Origin: a virus
Length of the DNA: 33,150 nucleotides
Reading direction: 5' to 3' (one strand)
IMG/VR virus record: IMGVR_UViG_3300007735_000630
Coordinates: 1 to 33,150 of that record
Shown: piece after piece, positions 138-33,150 of the stretch
How the letters are laid out: each line of letters opens with the position of its first letter
Position numbering within the stretch: position 1 is the stretch's first letter
The notes under the pieces: model-generated
What the model was told of the DNA's origin: nothing
The model's input: only the letters and a program-made list of their open reading frames with translations
Databases searched by the model: none
Made by a program: the position numbers and the translations under genes

Positions 138-1346
138 CTAAAGGTCAAGAAAGTCGATATCAAAATCATAATCGAGAGACCTCTTTGTTTTCCAAGTCCA
201 AGTATAAAGAGCATATCTGACTGCACAAAGTCCATCATCGAAAAGTTTGACAGGTTCATCGGTCTTCAATCCACCTTTGAATTTCCATTTGTATCTTCTC
301 AATTCTTCAATTATCTTAACTGAAGAAGTGTTGACAAACATCTTATATGATTTGACACAATCTATACCTTCTCTAACCTCTTTATTTGAATTTGATATAT
401 CAAATCCAGCTCTTCTGACTGCTTCGATTGTTTTTGGTTCAGCGCTATCACCATAGATTTTCAAGTCAGAAATCTGGCAATCTTTCATTTTAATTATCAA
501 GTCTTCTGTGGTCAAATAACTCTCGTGAATGAGTTCTTTAATCCAAATTCTTTTATAGTTGCTGTCAATCCAAATTTTAACGACTGCAGAAGGATGCACA
601 AAACCCCAGTCACAACCGACGATAATCTCTTGAAACTTAGGGTGTTTCTGACCAGTTTCATCTGTCTCATATAAATCATCATCACTCGACCAAAATTCAT
701 ATTGTGAATAAACTAATTCATTGTTCTTTGCAGGCAAACCAAGTCCATATACATTCCACATATCTTCATCTGTGTCTTTGTAAGTCTCAATTTGTTTTAT
801 GATTTCTTTATCTAAGAAGGGATTATCTTTATATGTTGAGTGAATGTATAAACATTCTGGTCGTTCTTTCAAGTGTAAAGACCAGTGAAGTGCGTTCGAA
901 GGGTTTTGAGCCATCAGAATCTTTTCTGATGTTCTCATAAAGATTTGGTCAGCTTCTTCTTTTTCAATCTCATTGACCTCATCAATAAAAACTAAGTCGT
1001 GTTTTAATCCACGTAGTTTTATCGATTGGTCGATTGATATAAACTGAATGGTGTTTCCATTGAGTGAATAGATGTTGTTTGTTTTGTTGTGATTTTCGGT
1101 TTTGTAAATTCGATATCGTTTCAAGATATCAATGAAGTCTCTATAAGCTCCAAGTCTGAGTGAAGGAAATGTTTTTCTTGCTATTGTGATAATCTTGTCT
1201 TTGTTTCTAAGACAATAAATCACAATGTATTGCAAAATCGAATATGTTTTTGATGAACGAGAGCCACCAACATTCAAGATAAATCTCTCTTCAGAGGCTA
1301 ACATTTTGTCTAATATACGACTTCCTTTAATCGTTAGTTTGGTCAT
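138..1346 (-). CDS. terL: Terminase large subunit
   Basis: This is the ATPase-nuclease of the DNA packaging motor, which docks on the portal and fills the procapsid. Counting from the chosen start (402 residues), a Walker A motif GGSRSSKT lies at 27-34, a Walker B strand ending in IDE at 121-123, and nuclease-domain acids in CDWG (245-248) and YGDSAEP (298-304). A C-terminal DDG..AVRYALY (about 370-383) fits the third metal-binding acid. The layout matches PBSX/Terminase_3-type enzymes. I chose the ATG at 1346, which overlaps the upstream small-subunit gene by 20 nt; an in-frame GTG at 1388 would add 14 residues but give a longer overlap. It follows terS directly in the leftward block, and the next gene downstream lies across the circular junction. 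Confidence 0.95.
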   Translation of the reverse strand: MTKLTIKGSRILDKMLASEERFILNVGGSRSSKTYSILQYIVIYCLRNKDKIITIARKTFPSLRLGAYRDFIDILKRYRIYKTENHNKTNNIYSLNGNTIQFISIDQSIKLRGLKHDLVFIDEVNEIEKEEADQIFMRTSEKILMAQNPSNALHWSLHLKERPECLYIHSTYKDNPFLDKEIIKQIETYKDTDEDMWNVYGLGLPAKNNELVYSQYEFWSSDDDLYETDETGQKHPKFQEIIVGCDWGFVHPSAVVKIWIDSNYKRIWIKELIHESYLTTEDLIIKMKDCQISDLKIYGDSAEPKTIEAVRRAGFDISNSNKEVREGIDCVKSYKMFVNTSSVKIIEELRRYKWKFKGGLKTDEPVKLFDDGLCAVRYALYTWTWKTKRSLDYDFDIDFLDL

Positions 1347-1734
1347 GTGATATAATCTTAACAATGACTTCGTGTGGTAGTCCTTCACCAGCTGAAGTCA
1401 CGTCAAGTTTTTGAGGTTTGTGAAGACCTAAAAGTTTGTTCAATTCCTTTTGTGCTTCTAATCTCAGTTTTTCATTTTTTGTGCCCTCAATCATTTCTTC
1501 TAAACGACCAACAGCATTATTGAAACTTTGTTCGAATTCTTCTTTGAAAATCTCAGATATCTTTTCTTTAGCTTCATTGATAAGTGCATACGACCTTGTC
1601 TGACCAAATCCAATATCATTCATCAAAAAGTCTAACATAGTTTTTGTTGTTGCAAACTTTTCAATTCGCATCTTAATCAGAGATTGAACAATCTGTTCTC
1701 CATCTAAGGCCTCTCTTTCATCTTTTTTCATCAT
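1327..1734 (-). CDS. terS: Terminase small subunit (putative)
   Basis: A 135-residue, mostly helical, charged protein directly upstream of and overlapping the large terminase gene, the usual place for the DNA-recognition subunit. The N-terminal half (about residues 10-55, ending around GFGQTRSYALI) could form a helix-turn-helix, followed by a long helix (about 55-100, rich in E/K) suitable for ring oligomerisation. The C-terminal tail (QKLDVTSAGEG to the end) resembles the flexible TerL-binding tails of small terminases. The call rests on size, predicted helical layout and position rather than a decisive motif. It starts at ATG 1734; a second ATG follows immediately. An AT-rich ATATATATTATAT tract precedes the start, with no clear Shine-Dalgarno site. 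Confidence 0.75.
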   Translation of the reverse strand: MMKKDEREALDGEQIVQSLIKMRIEKFATTKTMLDFLMNDIGFGQTRSYALINEAKEKISEIFKEEFEQSFNNAVGRLEEMIEGTKNEKLRLEAQKELNKLLGLHKPQKLDVTSAGEGLPHEVIVKIISHDQTND

Positions 1735-11473: not shown

Positions 11474-12211
11474 TTAAGATTTTGTTATATCTATTGAAAG
11501 ATTTACTCTTGTCAAAGTTGAAGCACTATCAACATTGAATGCAATTATATCACCAGATGTTACTGATGTTTGCCATGTTGAAAGTGAAAGGTCTTGATTT
11601 TTTGTTGCCGATGAAAGTGTTGGTCTTTCTGTGCCAGCAATTCTGTCTGCTACTGTTGGTGGAAAATTCGCGTATGTGTCTTTCCAAACATCTACAACGA
11701 TTGAACCTGTCTGGTCTGACATTATAGTCCAACCAGTGATTGTTCCGTTGTATGGAACTTCAACATATCCTTTTACACCAGTTGTGATTGCTGAACCACC
11801 ACCATCAATTGTGATGCCGAAAGATCCAAGTGATGTTGGTGAAGTGCCTGATGAACCAGATGTGCCATTAACACCAGATGTGCCTGATGTGCCATTAACA
11901 CCAGATGTGCCGCTGACACCAGATGTGCCTGATGTGCCACTGACACCAGAAGAACCAGATGAACCAGCAGAACCATTTGTTCCTGATGAACCTGATGAAC
12001 CTGATGAACCAGATGAACCAGATGTGCCATTCACACCAGATGTGCCTGATGAACCTGATGACCCAGATGTGCCTGATGAACCTGATGTTCCACTTGAACC
12101 CGTTGGTCCAATATATACACCAGTGTTAATATCATAAAGCAAACCATTTAGTGTGGTTCGAACTGATAAACCTGTGTCATTGTTGTTGATTAAATTATAC
12201 GGTGTTGGCAT
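11474..12211 (-). CDS. Collagen-like tail fibre protein
   Basis: A 245-residue protein in three parts: a short N-terminus (1-34) that probably attaches to the virion, about 30 uninterrupted Gly-X-Y triplets (residues 35-124) with X and Y almost always Ser, Thr, Val or Asn, and a C-terminal beta domain of about 120 residues (GSFGITIDGGG onwards, with VVDVWKDTYANFPPT) that would trimerise or bind. Bacterial and phage collagen-like proteins form triple helices without hydroxyproline. This one has almost no Pro or charge, so helix stability would have to come from the flanking domain or glycosylated Ser/Thr. It starts at ATG 12211 after an A-rich leader. Confidence 0.85.
   Translation of the reverse strand: MPTPYNLINNNDTGLSVRTTLNGLLYDINTGVYIGPTGSSGTSGSSGTSGSSGSSGTSGVNGTSGSSGSSGSSGSSGTNGSAGSSGSSGVSGTSGTSGVSGTSGVNGTSGTSGVNGTSGSSGTSPTSLGSFGITIDGGGSAITTGVKGYVEVPYNGTITGWTIMSDQTGSIVVDVWKDTYANFPPTVADRIAGTERPTLSSATKNQDLSLSTWQTSVTSGDIIAFNVDSASTLTRVNLSIDITKS
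11840..12109 (-). repeat. Gly-X-Y repeat-coding DNA
   Basis: Thirty 9-nt units encode GSS, GTS, GVN, GVS and similar triplets. Synonymous codons vary between units (GGC ACA and GGA ACA both occur), so the array is not a simple perfect tandem repeat. It is similar to the array at 31134-31349. Confidence 0.9.
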
Positions 12212-19981: not shown

Positions 19982-22900
19982 TTAATTGAAGGTAGATTGA
20001 CCTTCAAGAACTCGAACTCTTCTTTGTGTTGAAGTTATATCACTTTCAACAACATAAACTCTTTGTTCAGTTTGAGTTGGTGGATTTTCTGTTTGTGTAG
20101 ATTGTTGTTGTGGCGTTCCGATATTTTGTGTGTTGAAACTTGTAAATCCACCACTTTGTCCGAACTGACTACCACCACCGATTTGTGGAATGTTTGCTGA
20201 TTGAGAAGAGAAACTTGTAGTTGCATTTGAAGCACCACCTGCAGGTGAAAATTTAGTTTTTGCTATGTTTCTTACAGCAATCGCAGTTGTAGCAGCAACC
20301 GCCGCTGCTAATATCGGACCAACAATAGCACCAGCACCGAATGGAAGTGATTGTGCTGAGGCATAAGCATCTAACGCACCTTGTATACCTGATATGATGG
20401 TGTTTGATATTCTAAGTGCCTTTTGTGTTTTGAATGTTTTTTCAGCAACTGCATTTTGTTGTGCGACTAATTCATTGTTCAAATTATCACTTCCGATTTT
20501 CAACTGATTGTCTAAAGCAAGAATCGATTGATTGTATGCTTCTTTTGTGATAAGACCTTTTTGATATCTGTCAGTTTCGAGTGCTTTTTCTTTTTCATAT
20601 CTCTGTTGAAGAGCTTGTAGTTGTTGTTCGTTTTGTTGATTTAGTAATTCTTGGTCAGTTTGTCTAATGTTGTCAATCTCATTTATCAAATCTGAAATCA
20701 CACCAAATGACTGTGAAGCAATTTGATTTACCTCTTCTACGAAAGCAAGAACATTTTCTAAAGTAATTTCTCGAACTGCCTGGCCTCTTTTATCAGCCAA
20801 ATCTATAGTTTTTTGCGCAAACTCTTCTTCTGCGGTTTGGATTTTTAAATTACTTTCAAGATTTAAATTTTCAATTTGTTTATTCAAAAAAGCTTCAGCA
20901 TCAATAACCAATTTATTAAATCTTTGCTTTTCTGCCAAAGCACGCTTTTGTAGTTCAGTTGCTATATCAAATGAATTATCACCTGCTTCTTTTCTGATTT
21001 TTGCTTCTTTGTCTACTTCGTCTTCTATATCAATTAATCTTTGAGCAAGACCTTGTCTGTCTATTTCAACTTGCGCCTTACCAGTTTCTTCATTAAATGA
21101 GACTTGAATTTGTTTTAAATCGTCATAATATTTTAAAATCTCAGTTCTTTGTAAAACTTTTTCAGTTTCTGTTGCTTGTAAAGCAATATCAAGTTCATTT
21201 TGTGCGAGTTGTTTTCTAATTTTTAATCTTTCAGTTGCTAAACGATTTTGTTCGTTGATTTCAAGAGCCGAAGTATTTTCGATATGTGCTTCTATAGAAC
21301 TCAACTGCGCATTTAACAATTCATTTTGTTGAGAAAGTATCAAGTCATTTGTGTTTTGATTTCCGAATGTGAATTCTTTATTTAAAATTTCACGGCCTAA
21401 TTTGAGTTGTTGTAAAAGAAACTGGTCTTGTTCAACTTGTTGTTCATTCAACTTTTTAATTTCACCGAGTGTTGCTTTTGCTAAATTTATAGTGACATTT
21501 TGCTTTGCCTCTTCTAATTTCAAAAGAGCTTCATTTGCTTTTACTTTGTCTTTGATATTTTCTTCAATGAACTTTTTATCAGTTTCATATTTTGTGATGA
21601 CGTTAGCAAGTGAGAGGTCAAGTTGAATTGATTGTCTTTCGACTTCAGATCTGTCTTGTGTTCTTCTTGAATTTTCTAAAGCCTTTTCAGAATCTGAAAC
21701 TTGTTTATTCCATTCAAGTAGTCTTTGTGTGAGTTGGTCATAAGCATCTTTTTGATTATTTACAGATTTGACTACTTTTTTTCCACTGTCCTCAGTTTTA
21801 AATCCTAACTTTTCGATTTCTTCTGCCAAAGCTGTTTGCGATGAACCTAAACTTTCAGTAGTTTGTTTTGCCTTATCTAATTGAATTGTCAAAAGACTTA
21901 CTTGATTTGTTTGTCTTTGTAAATCTCCTTCACGTTCTCCTGATGCTCCTTTTAATGGTGCGTCTGCAGGTGCTCTAAACTGACCAAGTGCTTCTAATCT
22001 CTTTCTTGCTTTTTCTTCTTCTTTTTTTGCCTCAGTAAGTTTTTGTGTTAGTTCTTCTTCTTTTGCAAGTGAGGCTTGTAGTTTTTCTGCATTTTTCTGT
22101 TCTTTGAAACGAAGTCGTTGAAAAGCGATATACTGAATGACAGTTGCATTTACTTGTTTTTGAAATTGGTCTTCGTCTTGTAAGTTTTTGAGAGTAGTTC
22201 CATATTGCTCATTTATATCATCAATGGTTTTTTTCCTTTCTTTACTACCTTTCGTTGTTTCTTTCAAAGCCGCAATTTGTTTGTAAAATTCAATAGTTTC
22301 TTTTGAAACAAAATCTGCCTGTTCTTTTTGAAGTTTATTTAACTCTTCGAGTTCTTTTTTTCTTTTTTCTTCTGATTTTGCTGCTTGATTGCTCGACTGA
22401 ACATAATCGTAAATAGCAACACCTACTGTCACAACAGCTGCAGCTACGGCAATCCAAGGAAGTGCTTTCTGTGCTATTGCAAGTGCTCGTGTCGCTACTG
22501 TGGCACCTTCTGTGGCTGTTGTAGTAGTAAATAAACTCGAAATATATGCTTTTGCTGGTCCAACCACAGAAGCAAAACCTGCTTTTATTTGATCGATTGT
22601 ATCAGGAAGAGCACCAGCAAATTTTATCAAACTGGCTGCTCCTAAGACACCTTGGAGAATTTGGAGAGTTTTATTTAATTTTTCATTTTCAATACCAGCT
22701 GCTTGAAATCCTTGTTGAAGACCTTGTAGTCCAACAATTCCTTGTGTTAGTGCAAGTTCAAGTGAACCACCAAATCTTTCGGCAGCATTTCCAGCAACAA
22801 CACCAATGATTGCCGACGTATCACCCATCTGGTCTCTAAGTTCTCCTGCTCGCAAACTAAGTTCTTGAAATCTTGCTGAACCAGGTTCTAAGTTGTAAAG

Positions 22901-23284
22901 TTCTTGTGTGATTTTTCTAAGTTCGGCTCTTGCTGAATTGGCTTTTGATGTGAACTTCTCAGTTTCAGAAGCAACTTGTTTAATCGGTTCAGATGATAAA
23001 TTTTGCGTTGCTTCTGCCGTGTCTTGGATTGCAGAAGCCATCTTTTTAGTTGCACCTGCAGACTTTGTGACATTCTTTGTAAAACCAGAAACATCTTCAT
23101 TTAAAGCTTTGAAAATATTTTCTAAGTTCTTTGATTGGTTTTCTAATGATTTGAATTCACGAGTTCCTGACTGCAAACCAGTGAGTTCTGCTTGTGTTTG
23201 TTGTATAGCAGTTTCAAGCTGAGATATGGTTTTGACTGTTTGTTCAACACCATTAATTTTTACATTTATTTCAAAATCGGCCAT
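19982..23284 (-). CDS. Tail tape measure protein
   Basis: A 1100-residue, mostly helical protein with long coiled-coil regions, Gln/Lys/Glu rich, the hallmark of a tape measure, which sets tail length and is ejected with DNA. The N-terminus (MADFEINVKINGVEQTVKTI and then a QLETAIQQTQ helix) is of the kind found in Bacteroidota siphophages. Two hydrophobic segments are visible at about 274-293 (LPWIAVAAAVVTVGVAIYDY) and about 985-1008 (GAGAIVGPILAAAVAATTA), possible membrane-inserting parts. The C-terminus is a Gly/Ser/Gln linker followed by RVYVVESDITS and RRVRVLEG. From the usual rule of about 0.15 nm per residue, the tail would be about 165 nm. Confidence 0.92.
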   Translation of the reverse strand: MADFEINVKINGVEQTVKTISQLETAIQQTQAELTGLQSGTREFKSLENQSKNLENIFKALNEDVSGFTKNVTKSAGATKKMASAIQDTAEATQNLSSEPIKQVASETEKFTSKANSARAELRKITQELYNLEPGSARFQELSLRAGELRDQMGDTSAIIGVVAGNAAERFGGSLELALTQGIVGLQGLQQGFQAAGIENEKLNKTLQILQGVLGAASLIKFAGALPDTIDQIKAGFASVVGPAKAYISSLFTTTTATEGATVATRALAIAQKALPWIAVAAAVVTVGVAIYDYVQSSNQAAKSEEKRKKELEELNKLQKEQADFVSKETIEFYKQIAALKETTKGSKERKKTIDDINEQYGTTLKNLQDEDQFQKQVNATVIQYIAFQRLRFKEQKNAEKLQASLAKEEELTQKLTEAKKEEEKARKRLEALGQFRAPADAPLKGASGEREGDLQRQTNQVSLLTIQLDKAKQTTESLGSSQTALAEEIEKLGFKTEDSGKKVVKSVNNQKDAYDQLTQRLLEWNKQVSDSEKALENSRRTQDRSEVERQSIQLDLSLANVITKYETDKKFIEENIKDKVKANEALLKLEEAKQNVTINLAKATLGEIKKLNEQQVEQDQFLLQQLKLGREILNKEFTFGNQNTNDLILSQQNELLNAQLSSIEAHIENTSALEINEQNRLATERLKIRKQLAQNELDIALQATETEKVLQRTEILKYYDDLKQIQVSFNEETGKAQVEIDRQGLAQRLIDIEDEVDKEAKIRKEAGDNSFDIATELQKRALAEKQRFNKLVIDAEAFLNKQIENLNLESNLKIQTAEEEFAQKTIDLADKRGQAVREITLENVLAFVEEVNQIASQSFGVISDLINEIDNIRQTDQELLNQQNEQQLQALQQRYEKEKALETDRYQKGLITKEAYNQSILALDNQLKIGSDNLNNELVAQQNAVAEKTFKTQKALRISNTIISGIQGALDAYASAQSLPFGAGAIVGPILAAAVAATTAIAVRNIAKTKFSPAGGASNATTSFSSQSANIPQIGGGSQFGQSGGFTSFNTQNIGTPQQQSTQTENPPTQTEQRVYVVESDITSTQRRVRVLEGQSTFN

Positions 23285-30194: not shown

Positions 30195-31541
30195 TTAAAT
30201 TGTTTCTAATTTATAAGCCATCAATTTACCACTCGGGATTGACTGACCACCTCGTATGACCAAATCAGATGCTGAATATAAAAAGATTTCGATTTTGTCT
30301 AAGGCATTTAATTGTGCCTGCCAACTGCCTGTGATTTCATAATATGGTATAGTAGTTCCTGATCCATAGGTTGATGATGATTTAGCTGCAAAAGCAATCC
30401 CTGTGCCAGACCAGGTTACGCCATTTTTCTTTAAGAAAAAGACTGCCTGATTGTCTAAATTATTTTGATGACCTAATGAAACCATATAATGAAATTGATA
30501 ATATCCATCTGATACAACTGAAATCCACGATTGTGTTGCTGATGTAAATGCATTAAAACCCCATTGTGTTTCTATATTGTCGGTGAAATGCACAAAGGTC
30601 TCGGCACCAGCTGCCTTAGTCTGTGTCTTTTGAGACCAACCTGAAAAGTATGCTGGTGCGAACGAAGTGCCTGATGTGCCTGATGTGCCGCTATTTCCAG
30701 TTGCTCCAACAACACCACCTAATTCAAATGCTGATGCGTTGATATATTCATATATCAAAGTGCCTGAAAGAGACACGGCTTTTGCTAAAACTGCAAACCA
30801 ATATTGTGTTCCGATTGTGAGACCATTAACTATGAATGACAGGTTCGTTTGATTTCCAAAAGAAATCATTCTTTCAGAAACAGAAGTTCCAGTTGCTGCT
30901 GCGCCATCAATCGGTGCCACGCCTGTTCCATATCTTAGTTCATAAATCATATCAGACACACCCTGTGTTGCCTGAAATTCATAATTGACATAGACAACAC
31001 CAGTTGATTTAGGTGTGAAATAAAATCCACCAGTTGCACCTATCATTTTGCCTGATGTGCCAACATTGGGTATTGATAAAGTCTGATATGAATTTGTTGA
31101 ATTATTCCAAGTGATTTGTCCAATCGGTGATGGTGATGTTCCTGATGACCCTGACGAACCTGATGAACCACTTTGACCTGACGAACCACTTGATCCTGAT
31201 GTTCCACTTTGACCTGATGAACCACTTACACCACTTGAACCAGAGGAACCTGATGTTCCATTAGTACCTGATGAACCACTTGAACCTGATGAACCACTTA
31301 CACCACTTGAACCAGAAGAACCTGATGTGCCATTTGTGCCTGATGCACCGCTCACTGCACCCCAACTAAGGCCACCAGTTCCATCTGTTATTAAACCTTG
31401 ACCAGATGAACCATAAGATTGTGGTAAATCAAAATCAAGTTGTGATGAACCAGTATATCCAAGTGTGAGATATGTTGATGTTGAAGATGATATTTTTAAT
31501 CTACCTTCACCATTAAAAGAATTTTGATTTATTCCTGACAT
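30195..31541 (-). CDS. Collagen-like fibre with C1q-type C-terminal domain
   Basis: A 448-residue protein. Residues 1-64 may attach to the virion. Residues 65-136 are about 24 Gly-X-Y triplets, mostly GSS, GTS, GVS, GTN and GQS, with no Pro. A beta domain follows (about 138-275, including a fibronectin-like LTIGTQYWFAVLAKA), then a second short collagen-like stretch (GAT GNS GTS GTS GTS, about 279-293), and a C-terminal C1q/TNF-like jelly roll (about 297-448; SDGYYQFHYMVSLGH and DKIEIFLYSASD are typical). C1q domains trimerise and would nucleate the triple helix. Probably a trimeric tail fibre or adhesin. It is located between the tail completion and gp10-like genes. Confidence 0.85.
   Translation of the reverse strand: MSGINQNSFNGEGRLKISSSTSTYLTLGYTGSSQLDFDLPQSYGSSGQGLITDGTGGLSWGAVSGASGTNGTSGSSGSSGVSGSSGSSGSSGTNGTSGSSGSSGVSGSSGQSGTSGSSGSSGQSGSSGSSGSSGTSPSPIGQITWNNSTNSYQTLSIPNVGTSGKMIGATGGFYFTPKSTGVVYVNYEFQATQGVSDMIYELRYGTGVAPIDGAAATGTSVSERMISFGNQTNLSFIVNGLTIGTQYWFAVLAKAVSLSGTLIYEYINASAFELGGVVGATGNSGTSGTSGTSFAPAYFSGWSQKTQTKAAGAETFVHFTDNIETQWGFNAFTSATQSWISVVSDGYYQFHYMVSLGHQNNLDNQAVFFLKKNGVTWSGTGIAFAAKSSSTYGSGTTIPYYEITGSWQAQLNALDKIEIFLYSASDLVIRGGQSIPSGKLMAYKLETI
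31134..31349 (-). repeat. Gly-X-Y repeat-coding DNA with 72-bp period
   Basis: Twenty-four 9-nt triplet-coding units. Within them a unit encoding GTN GTS GSS GSS GVS GSS occurs twice with a 72-bp period (compare 31221 and 31293 on the + strand), with several synonymous changes. The other array is at 11840-12109. Confidence 0.9.
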
Positions 31542-32042: not shown

Positions 32043-32318
32043 CTAAGATGATGTTTTTTTGTAGCCACCACTTTCAATGTAAGAAATGTGATTGAGAACA
32101 GCAACAATCGGCAGTTCATAAACAGATTGAATTTTCATTATATCACCATCACAAACACGAACTATAATATCATACATTCCCCATTTCATTTGCCATTGTC
32201 TTCGGTTAGTTTCTTCAAAATCATCTCCTCCTCCTTCATCATCATCTTCACTTCGTCCATCATTTCCTTGCCCAAAGAGGCCAGAGAATGATGCAATGAT
32301 GTCATCGAAACCAGTGAA
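32043..32318 (-). CDS. Tail assembly chaperone extension (-1 frame, GT-type)
   Basis: This is the part that would be added to the upstream chaperone if ribosomes slip back one base on the T10 run (32317-32326). Translation would continue FTGFDDIIASFSGLFGQG, then an acidic Gly-rich linker (SEDDDEGGGDDFEE), then NRRQWQMKWGMYDIIVR and a hydrophobic/beta C-terminus (SVYELPIVAVLNHISYIES), 91 residues in all, for a fusion of 264 residues. The -1 frame is closed by a TGA at 32346-32348, and the poly-T is the only slippery run between that point and the end of the zero frame. An independent start at ATG 32187-32189 (48 residues, ATGA overlap) is the alternative. The codon pattern and peptide look genuinely coding. 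Confidence 0.75.
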   Translation of the reverse strand, partial: FTGFDDIIASFSGLFGQGNDGRSEDDDEGGGDDFEETNRRQWQMKWGMYDIIVRVCDGDIMKIQSVYELPIVAVLNHISYIESGGYKKTSS

Positions 32319-32836
32319 AAAAAAAACAAGGCACCAAACACGATTTCAATTGATAAATTGTCTTTGAACAAATTTGCTCGTTTTTCAAATCCTGCCGAAC
32401 GGTGTGGTTCTATGGTATATTCAAACTCATCTTCAGAAATGACTGGTCTATAAATTAGGGCAATCAAGTTGTGTAGATTTGCATTTGTGTCTCTTTTGAA
32501 TTGTTCACAATCTATAAACACACCAGTTGACATCAGATTCAGCTCTGGTTCAATTCCATATTTTTGACCATTCAACGTAAATGTCTTTTTAAAATCCATT
32601 GTAGGTTTCTCGAGAAGAAACTCACGGGCTTCTTTTAACTGCTTGAATTCTGATATAGACATTTGTCTGATATCTTGTGGGTCTAAGTCATCACAGATTG
32701 AAATAGCTTCAATAAAATCACCAAGACCAGTGTCAGTTTTTATCAGCATCATTTCCTGATACTGACCGATTGTAACTTCTGACCACCCCTTTTTGTTCAC
32801 GAAGTTTTCTTTTTTTATATTGTCTTTGATATTCAT
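32186..32836 (-). CDS. Tail assembly chaperone (zero-frame product)
   Basis: A 216-residue protein whose first ~170 residues look like a tail assembly chaperone of Bacteroidota phages: NKKGWSEVTIGQYQEMMLIK (14-33), ICDDLDPQDIRQMSISEF (47-64), FTLNGQKYGIEPELN (86-100) and LHNLIALIYRPV (121-132). From the FFF at 171-173 the zero-frame tail (SLVSMTSLHHSLASLG and onwards) looks like out-of-frame sequence. The -1 frame instead gives a plausible acidic-linker plus C-terminal domain, as in lambda gpG/gpGT. The start at 32836 overlaps the upstream gene by 104 nt; no nearer start keeps the KKGW region. Confidence 0.8.
   Translation of the reverse strand: MNIKDNIKKENFVNKKGWSEVTIGQYQEMMLIKTDTGLGDFIEAISICDDLDPQDIRQMSISEFKQLKEAREFLLEKPTMDFKKTFTLNGQKYGIEPELNLMSTGVFIDCEQFKRDTNANLHNLIALIYRPVISEDEFEYTIEPHRSAGFEKRANLFKDNLSIEIVFGALFFFSLVSMTSLHHSLASLGKEMMDEVKMMMKEEEMILKKLTEDNGK
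32317..32326 (-). promoter_or_regulatory. T10 slippery run (-1 frameshift site)
   Basis: Ten T on the coding strand, read in the zero frame as TTG TTT TTT TTT TCA (codons 170-174). T TTT TTT is a canonical slippery heptamer shape for -1 programmed frameshifting; a run this long could equally cause RNA polymerase slippage or an assembly error of one base. Eleven T would make one continuous 264-codon gene. Confidence 0.7.
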
Positions 32837-33125
32837 TCCACTTTTCTTTATTTATTTTTTTCCATTCTTTGGAATATTCGTCCATTTTTGTTTTATTCTT
32901 CTTGTAGTATTCTTGTTCATAACTCAAAATCTTTTCAATTTTGACGTGTCTCAACCACCAATCAGGTAGTCTTTTATATTCAGTCAGTTCTACTTCAGTT
33001 GCTGACCATTTGAGTTGTCTGAAAATTCTACACTCACAATCATCAATCTGAATATAAATCATTTCTAATTTGAGACCAGGTTCTTCATAAAGAATATCTT
33101 TTGATTTCAATTTGTATGTGCTCAT
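32733..33125 (-). CDS. Basic protein, function unknown
   Basis: A 130-residue protein, the first gene after the large terminase in transcription order across the circular junction. It has an N-terminal mixed domain (about 1-60, with EPGLKLEMIYIQIDDCECRI and LPDWWLRHVKIEKI) followed by a very basic helical stretch (about 68-115; YYKKNKTKMDEYSKEWKK and QRQYKKRKLREQKG). The Lys/Glu-rich stretch resembles the tail of the GIY-YIG protein at 1771-2220, and homing-endonuclease-like DNA-binding tails. Its 3' end overlaps the tail chaperone gene by 104 nt in a different frame, so the last ~34 residues may not be functional. The upstream region has TATATAAG. Confidence 0.65.
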   Translation of the reverse strand: MSTYKLKSKDILYEEPGLKLEMIYIQIDDCECRIFRQLKWSATEVELTEYKRLPDWWLRHVKIEKILSYEQEYYKKNKTKMDEYSKEWKKINKEKWNEYQRQYKKRKLREQKGVVRSYNRSVSGNDADKN

Positions 33126-33150
33126 TTCTTATATATTAAAATGATGTCAT
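33024..33150. repeat. Direct terminal repeat, right copy
   Basis: This is the second copy of 1-127, with one mismatch (T at 33049 versus A at 26). It marks the overlap of the circular map; the gene at 32733-33125 is complete here and truncated in the left copy. Confidence 0.93.

Follow-up and report, generated by a model that had tools for sequence, protein, structure and literature searches.

Recoding of phage tail assembly chaperone genes is textbook ribosomal frameshifting. In phage lambda (gpG/gpGT) and in HK97-type chaperones, a tail-module gene gives an N-domain product and a longer -1 fusion, to which a small C-terminal domain is added, and the shift sites are varied heptamers. Chaperones of this type bind the tape measure protein, are missing from the virion, and are required in a fixed ratio. 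Transcriptional slippage is the recoding route of Thermus dnaX, Shigella mxiE/spa13, Citrobacter tssM, and IS elements, whose recoding site is a homopolymer, some nine A or T long, with a stop nearby in another frame; the mRNA then varies in run length. Runs of nine A or T make bacterial RNA polymerase, with its hybrid of 9–10 bp, slip efficiently (review, PMC5009743), and a nine-base threshold has been found in many genomes (genome survey, PMC1088944). In our search of open-licence papers, tail chaperones and transcriptional slippage were brought together only by a general review and by prediction tools.

We analyzed a window of 33,150 nucleotides (IMG/VR virus record IMGVR_UViG_3300007735_000630), which carries terminase, portal, protease, and tail genes; its portal has about 30% identity to that of Nonlabens phage P12024S. 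One tail-module gene in the window shares with lambda and HK97 the N-domain product and the longer -1 fusion, but it has no detectable sequence similarity to those genes, its slip site is an all-T run of at least nine rather than one of varied heptamers, a dual-coding tail of 40–60 codons follows the slip, and the tape measure gene is not adjacent. It shares with the transcriptional slippage genes the homopolymer and the nearby stop, but it is a phage tail gene that also contains an in-frame ribosomal heptamer, and its polymerase slippage is predicted. The direct homologue is P12024S gp38/gp39 (phrog_32199/phrog_38404), with a T9 run, an unannotated frameshift, and about 20–27% identity to the window protein.

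We propose a two-product tail assembly gene of the lambda gpG/gpGT kind. Standard reading would give a 216-aa product, and a minority event at the poly-T, either one U added to the mRNA or a -1 shift of the ribosome, would give a fusion with a second small domain. The run would act mainly through RNA polymerase slippage, to which the in-frame T_TTT_TTT may add ribosomal slippage. We regard this reading, taken as a whole, as moderately probable.

Two reading frames meet at a T-run

The T10 run, the zero-frame ORF, and a -1 frame open to 32043 had been described in the initial annotation, and all are present in the window (Table 1). From stop to stop the -1 ORF spans 32043–32345 (-), opening 19 nt upstream of the T10 run, and the predicted fused product is 264 aa (173 + 91).

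Table 1 Features of the frameshifted gene and of related genes in the window
Feature	Coordinates	Strand	Content or basis
Zero-frame ORF, gpG-like product, 216 aa	32186..32836	-	N-terminal domain phrog_32199 (function unknown), then ~43 residues past the run
Putative T10 slip site	32317..32326	-	Zero frame TTG TTT TTT TTT TCA; in-frame T_TTT_TTT inside; A10 on + strand
-1-frame extension, 91 aa + stop	32043..32318	-	Acidic linker, then C-terminal domain (KWGMYDI...GD...LP)
Dual-coding overlap, zero and -1 frames	32189..32316	-	Substitution pattern across the family
Stop codon shutting the -1 frame upstream of the run	32346..32348	-	Sequence
+1-frame stop, four codons past the run	32302..32304	-	Sequence; family statistic
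Next tail-module gene, 160 aa	31541..32023	-	Position of P12024S gp41
Tape measure protein candidate	19982..23284	-	Downstream in the same gene series, not adjacent
Large terminase	138..1388	-	Upstream of the chaperone-candidate gene if the contig is circularly permuted, as in P12024S

Near-identity searches with the window protein among viral contigs and cultured phages returned no match, and the family was reached through the neighboring gene and profile searches. The 160-aa neighbor gene as query returned three contigs (87% match), in which the chaperone-candidate gene has a T9 run and its downstream domain in the -1 frame. Profile searches enlarged the set stepwise to 15 loci, to >100, and then to >300; an alignment of nine rows proved too divergent for scanning. 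The hosts of these related viruses are Bacteroidota, and among 397 Flavobacteriaceae genomes only 3 have the gene. In 54/54 members, the N-terminal part belongs to phrog_32199, and P12024S gp39 is phrog_38404, both PHROGs being of unknown function. The P12024S annotation lists the adjacent gp38 and gp39 (L266 137–831) as separate hypothetical proteins; both belong to a single frameshifted gene, one frame each, with T9 as its run, and should be annotated accordingly.

The -1 offset was constant across relatives. The C-terminal domain lies in the -1 frame in 263/263 loci of the first set and in 78/80 of a deeper clade, the other two having no domain match, so that the -1 frame holds in all 341 loci with a scorable second domain. 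The shift joining two domains at the T-run, as originally suggested, thus extends to hundreds of relatives in which the run and both frames are conserved, and neither a T11 run nor an unshifted single gene was found among near relatives; single-ORF homologues do occur, far away. Long homopolymers are generally error-prone, and the run could in principle reflect sequencing error, a pseudogene, or phase variation. However, the -1 offset is the same in every scored locus whether the run is 7, 9, 10, or 12, no locus is single-frame, and both frames are selected (see below); the constant offset rules out sequencing error and phase variation, and we give the explanation as a whole almost no credence.

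Both frames behave as coding sequence

We compared substitution rates at zero-frame codon positions 1, 2, and 3 in 1433 non-independent pairs of moderately diverged loci. The rates were 0.158, 0.095, and 0.421 upstream of the overlap, 0.121, 0.175, and 0.187 within it, and 0.080, 0.299, and 0.144 past the zero-frame stop. The pattern of the overlap thus falls between those of its flanks, with an excess of changes that are silent in either frame. On this comparative evidence, both frames are under selection throughout the overlap; therefore the zero-frame tail is predicted to be a real product too. The initial annotation had called that tail unconvincing; in the family it runs to about 56 codons under selection and is not junk. 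Past the run, the median open length is 56 codons in the zero frame and 84 in the -1 frame, and the +1 frame is closed within four codons in 122/124 representatives. We had considered the immediate +1-frame stop as evidence for polymerase slippage and downgraded it to supportive, because it largely follows from a zero-frame Leu and a -1-frame Lys or Arg.

Run length is conserved and phase is not

The first set comprised 263 complete loci (225 different proteins), two shorter run values at contig ends being left out. None has fewer than nine T (192 T9, 70 T10, and one T12). The run lies at the same place in the enlarged set of 312 non-identical loci (207 T9, 102 T10, one T12, and two T7) and in two further, bacterial genomes, both T9, of which one has the common and the other the third phase. 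Independent assemblies concur on its length (L002, L003, and L004 all T9; L007 and L008 both T10). The two T7 loci, L284 and L288, belong to one lineage with the run in exact T_TTT_TTT phase.

The run was found in all three codon phases, with 18 Fitch changes of phase on the tree; the state of at least nine T was lost once. In the commonest phase (111 representatives) there are exactly nine zero-entropy T positions, flanked by positions of 1.44 and 1.55 bits. Among representatives whose first codon is xTT, 138/138 have T as the first base of the codon that follows the run core, whereas among those with TTT, which brings the run to nine without it, 23/34 have a base other than T there (Fisher test: P = 1e-20, uncorrected for ancestry). 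This contrast indicates that length is kept while phase changes, and run length looks selected since the residues around the run change freely. From these alignments, selection looks to set a floor of nine T under the run, whereas phase, codons, and neighboring residues vary, although amino acid constraints of two frames account in part for how well T is conserved and for how near the +1 stop lies. Conserved in the sequences compared are the two frames, the order in which they occur, and the run.

RNA polymerase or ribosomal slippage

The initial annotation had left open whether the slip is ribosomal or transcriptional. This proved the right question, with the T7 heptamer lineage on one side and the phase-independent length floor on the other; the two routes yield an identical fused peptide. 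The hallmark of transcriptional slippage, a homopolymer of about the length of the RNA–DNA hybrid (at least nine), is present in 310/312 loci, the window having T10. The hallmark of -1 ribosomal frameshifting, an in-frame X_XXY_YYZ heptamer, is present as T_TTT_TTT in every locus, which is unavoidable for any run of nine T.

We also counted long runs in the other genes of the fetched loci. In these phage genes, runs of T ≥ 8 and A ≥ 9 are strongly avoided in whatever phase: T8 occurs 3 times against 32.7 expected, T ≥ 9 once against 10.2, and A ≥ 9 nine times against 51. T8 in a phase without an in-frame heptamer is also avoided (2 vs. 16.6), and in-frame A7, a ribosomal-type site, is not (99 vs. 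95.2). Such a phase-independent hazard would be expected from polymerase slippage or from replication slippage, and the avoidance of long runs could stem from DNA replication slippage instead.

An ordinary programmed -1 ribosomal frameshift would have two Phe tRNAs slip in tandem on T_TTT_TTT, the extra Ts enhancing the shift or meeting amino acid needs. This agrees with tail-chaperone recoding as described, which is ribosomal (PMC5009743), with the heptamer in every locus, and with the T7 lineage, which retains exactly that heptamer in frame; because of this lineage, ribosomal slippage on T_TTT_TTT may still take place. However, the minimal T8 is found in 0/261 phase-1 loci, the length floor is independent of phase, and U_UUU_UUU is a weaker shift site in E. 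coli than A_AAA_AAG (PMC5009743). Nor was a stimulator, a common but not obligatory element of such sites, found: simple folding revealed no downstream RNA structure, the windows folding no better than shuffled sequences (mean z ~0.1), and a motif search found no upstream SD-like motif in 62/66 representatives. We regard a purely ribosomal shift as a serious but less probable explanation.

Mainly RNA polymerase slippage is favored because length is held at nine or more in any reading phase, and the length floor, the lack of a detected stimulator, and the phase-blind avoidance of long runs together point to this route. From the sequence comparisons we lean modestly toward a run that works mainly by RNA polymerase slippage, with ribosomal slippage possibly contributing, and a minority slip of this kind would be the source of the fusion. 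There is perhaps an even chance that, throughout this group of Bacteroidota phages, the proportion of the two tail-chaperone products is determined by RNA polymerase slippage, with a T-run matching the nine-base hybrid; if so, the supply of fusion for tail assembly would be set at transcription rather than by the ribosome. Tail-chaperone-type output seems tied to a homopolymer conserved in length, not phase, over several hundred phages, and a switch from translation-level to transcription-level recoding becomes directly testable.

Distant homologues in one reading frame

Homologues of 259–301 aa encoded by a single ORF were found in Duneviridae and Helgolandviridae (Flavobacterium phages FPSV-F7 and laban6-1, Cellulophaga phage Ingeline_1, and Polaribacter phage Leef_1) and in a Microcystis phage (Mea-Yong924-1). 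Like the window gene, they have a homologous N domain (hhalign: probability 97, E = 1.4e-10) followed by a second domain, for which the match is collinear but weak (E = 0.002, probability 13); unlike it, they have both domains in one frame, with at most T6 at the junction and no alternative frame open for >38 codons past it. By alignment, the same two domains are joined at the same point, and the long T-run accompanies the split form. Fused and split versions of one protein are thus visible side by side.

Flavobacterium phage 6H was considered as a frameshifted homologue without a T-run and set aside because its sister phages have one ORF. Its gp10 (L267 10352–10927) is annotated with 191 aa, and the sisters (FPSV-F7 and others) have a single ORF of ~293 aa, 98–99% identical over 186 residues; the 6H copy looks interrupted or mis-sequenced.

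Probable tail-chaperone identity and gene order

Comparison across the family (conserved frames, dual-frame selection) indicates a short form and a longer -1 form that arises near the end of the first frame. The tail-chaperone label given in the initial annotation therefore holds for the gpG/gpGT-like short/long design, which is conserved and selected in both frames, and is only likely for the identity of the protein, for which it draws on how the gene is built, on synteny, and on a weak similarity of fold. The model of the N domain (pLDDT 84.7) had no significant fold match in the PDB; the HK97 tail assembly chaperone 2ob9 ranked third by Foldseek (E = 3.2) and was the top chain upon re-alignment, both matches being weak (Z = 2.8, rmsd 4.4, 65 residues). 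The model of the C-terminal domain (pLDDT 70) gave no useful fold match. Pfam returned no tail-chaperone match, and PHROG only families of unknown function.

In synteny with P12024S, the gene comes after the terminase and heads the tail genes, with the tape measure gene further on. About 8.8 kb separate it from the tape measure gene downstream, which is on the same strand and in the same module, and several genes lie between. This separation, the lack of a Pfam or PHROG tail-chaperone match, and a Z of only 2.8 to the HK97 fold would suit a real frameshifted gene whose two forms, short and long, belong to some other tail or neck protein. However, the gene sits in the tail module, has the two-domain short/long design, and finds its top re-aligned fold in the HK97 chaperone, which makes such a protein an unlikely alternative. 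Judging from sequence and structure models, the gene works like gpG/gpGT and probably encodes a tail assembly chaperone. This suggests a probable function for two PHROG families that had none assigned, and it corrects their gene model.

Other features of the window

The terminase at one contig end and the tail module at the other (33125–33150) follow a P12024S-like order, which suggests that the contig is a circular permutation. An upstream ORF of 130 aa (32733–33125) overlaps the start of the chaperone-candidate gene by 104 nt; L002, too, conserves the K/Y-rich end of this ORF. Several start codons are preceded on the coding strand, at a distance of ~11–15 nt, by A8–A9 tracts (16075, 17001, 24461, and 32035) instead of Shine-Dalgarno motifs. 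Two fibre genes are collagen-like with GSSG repeats (11474–12211 and 30195–31541), the latter being inserted between two genes that adjoin in P12024S.
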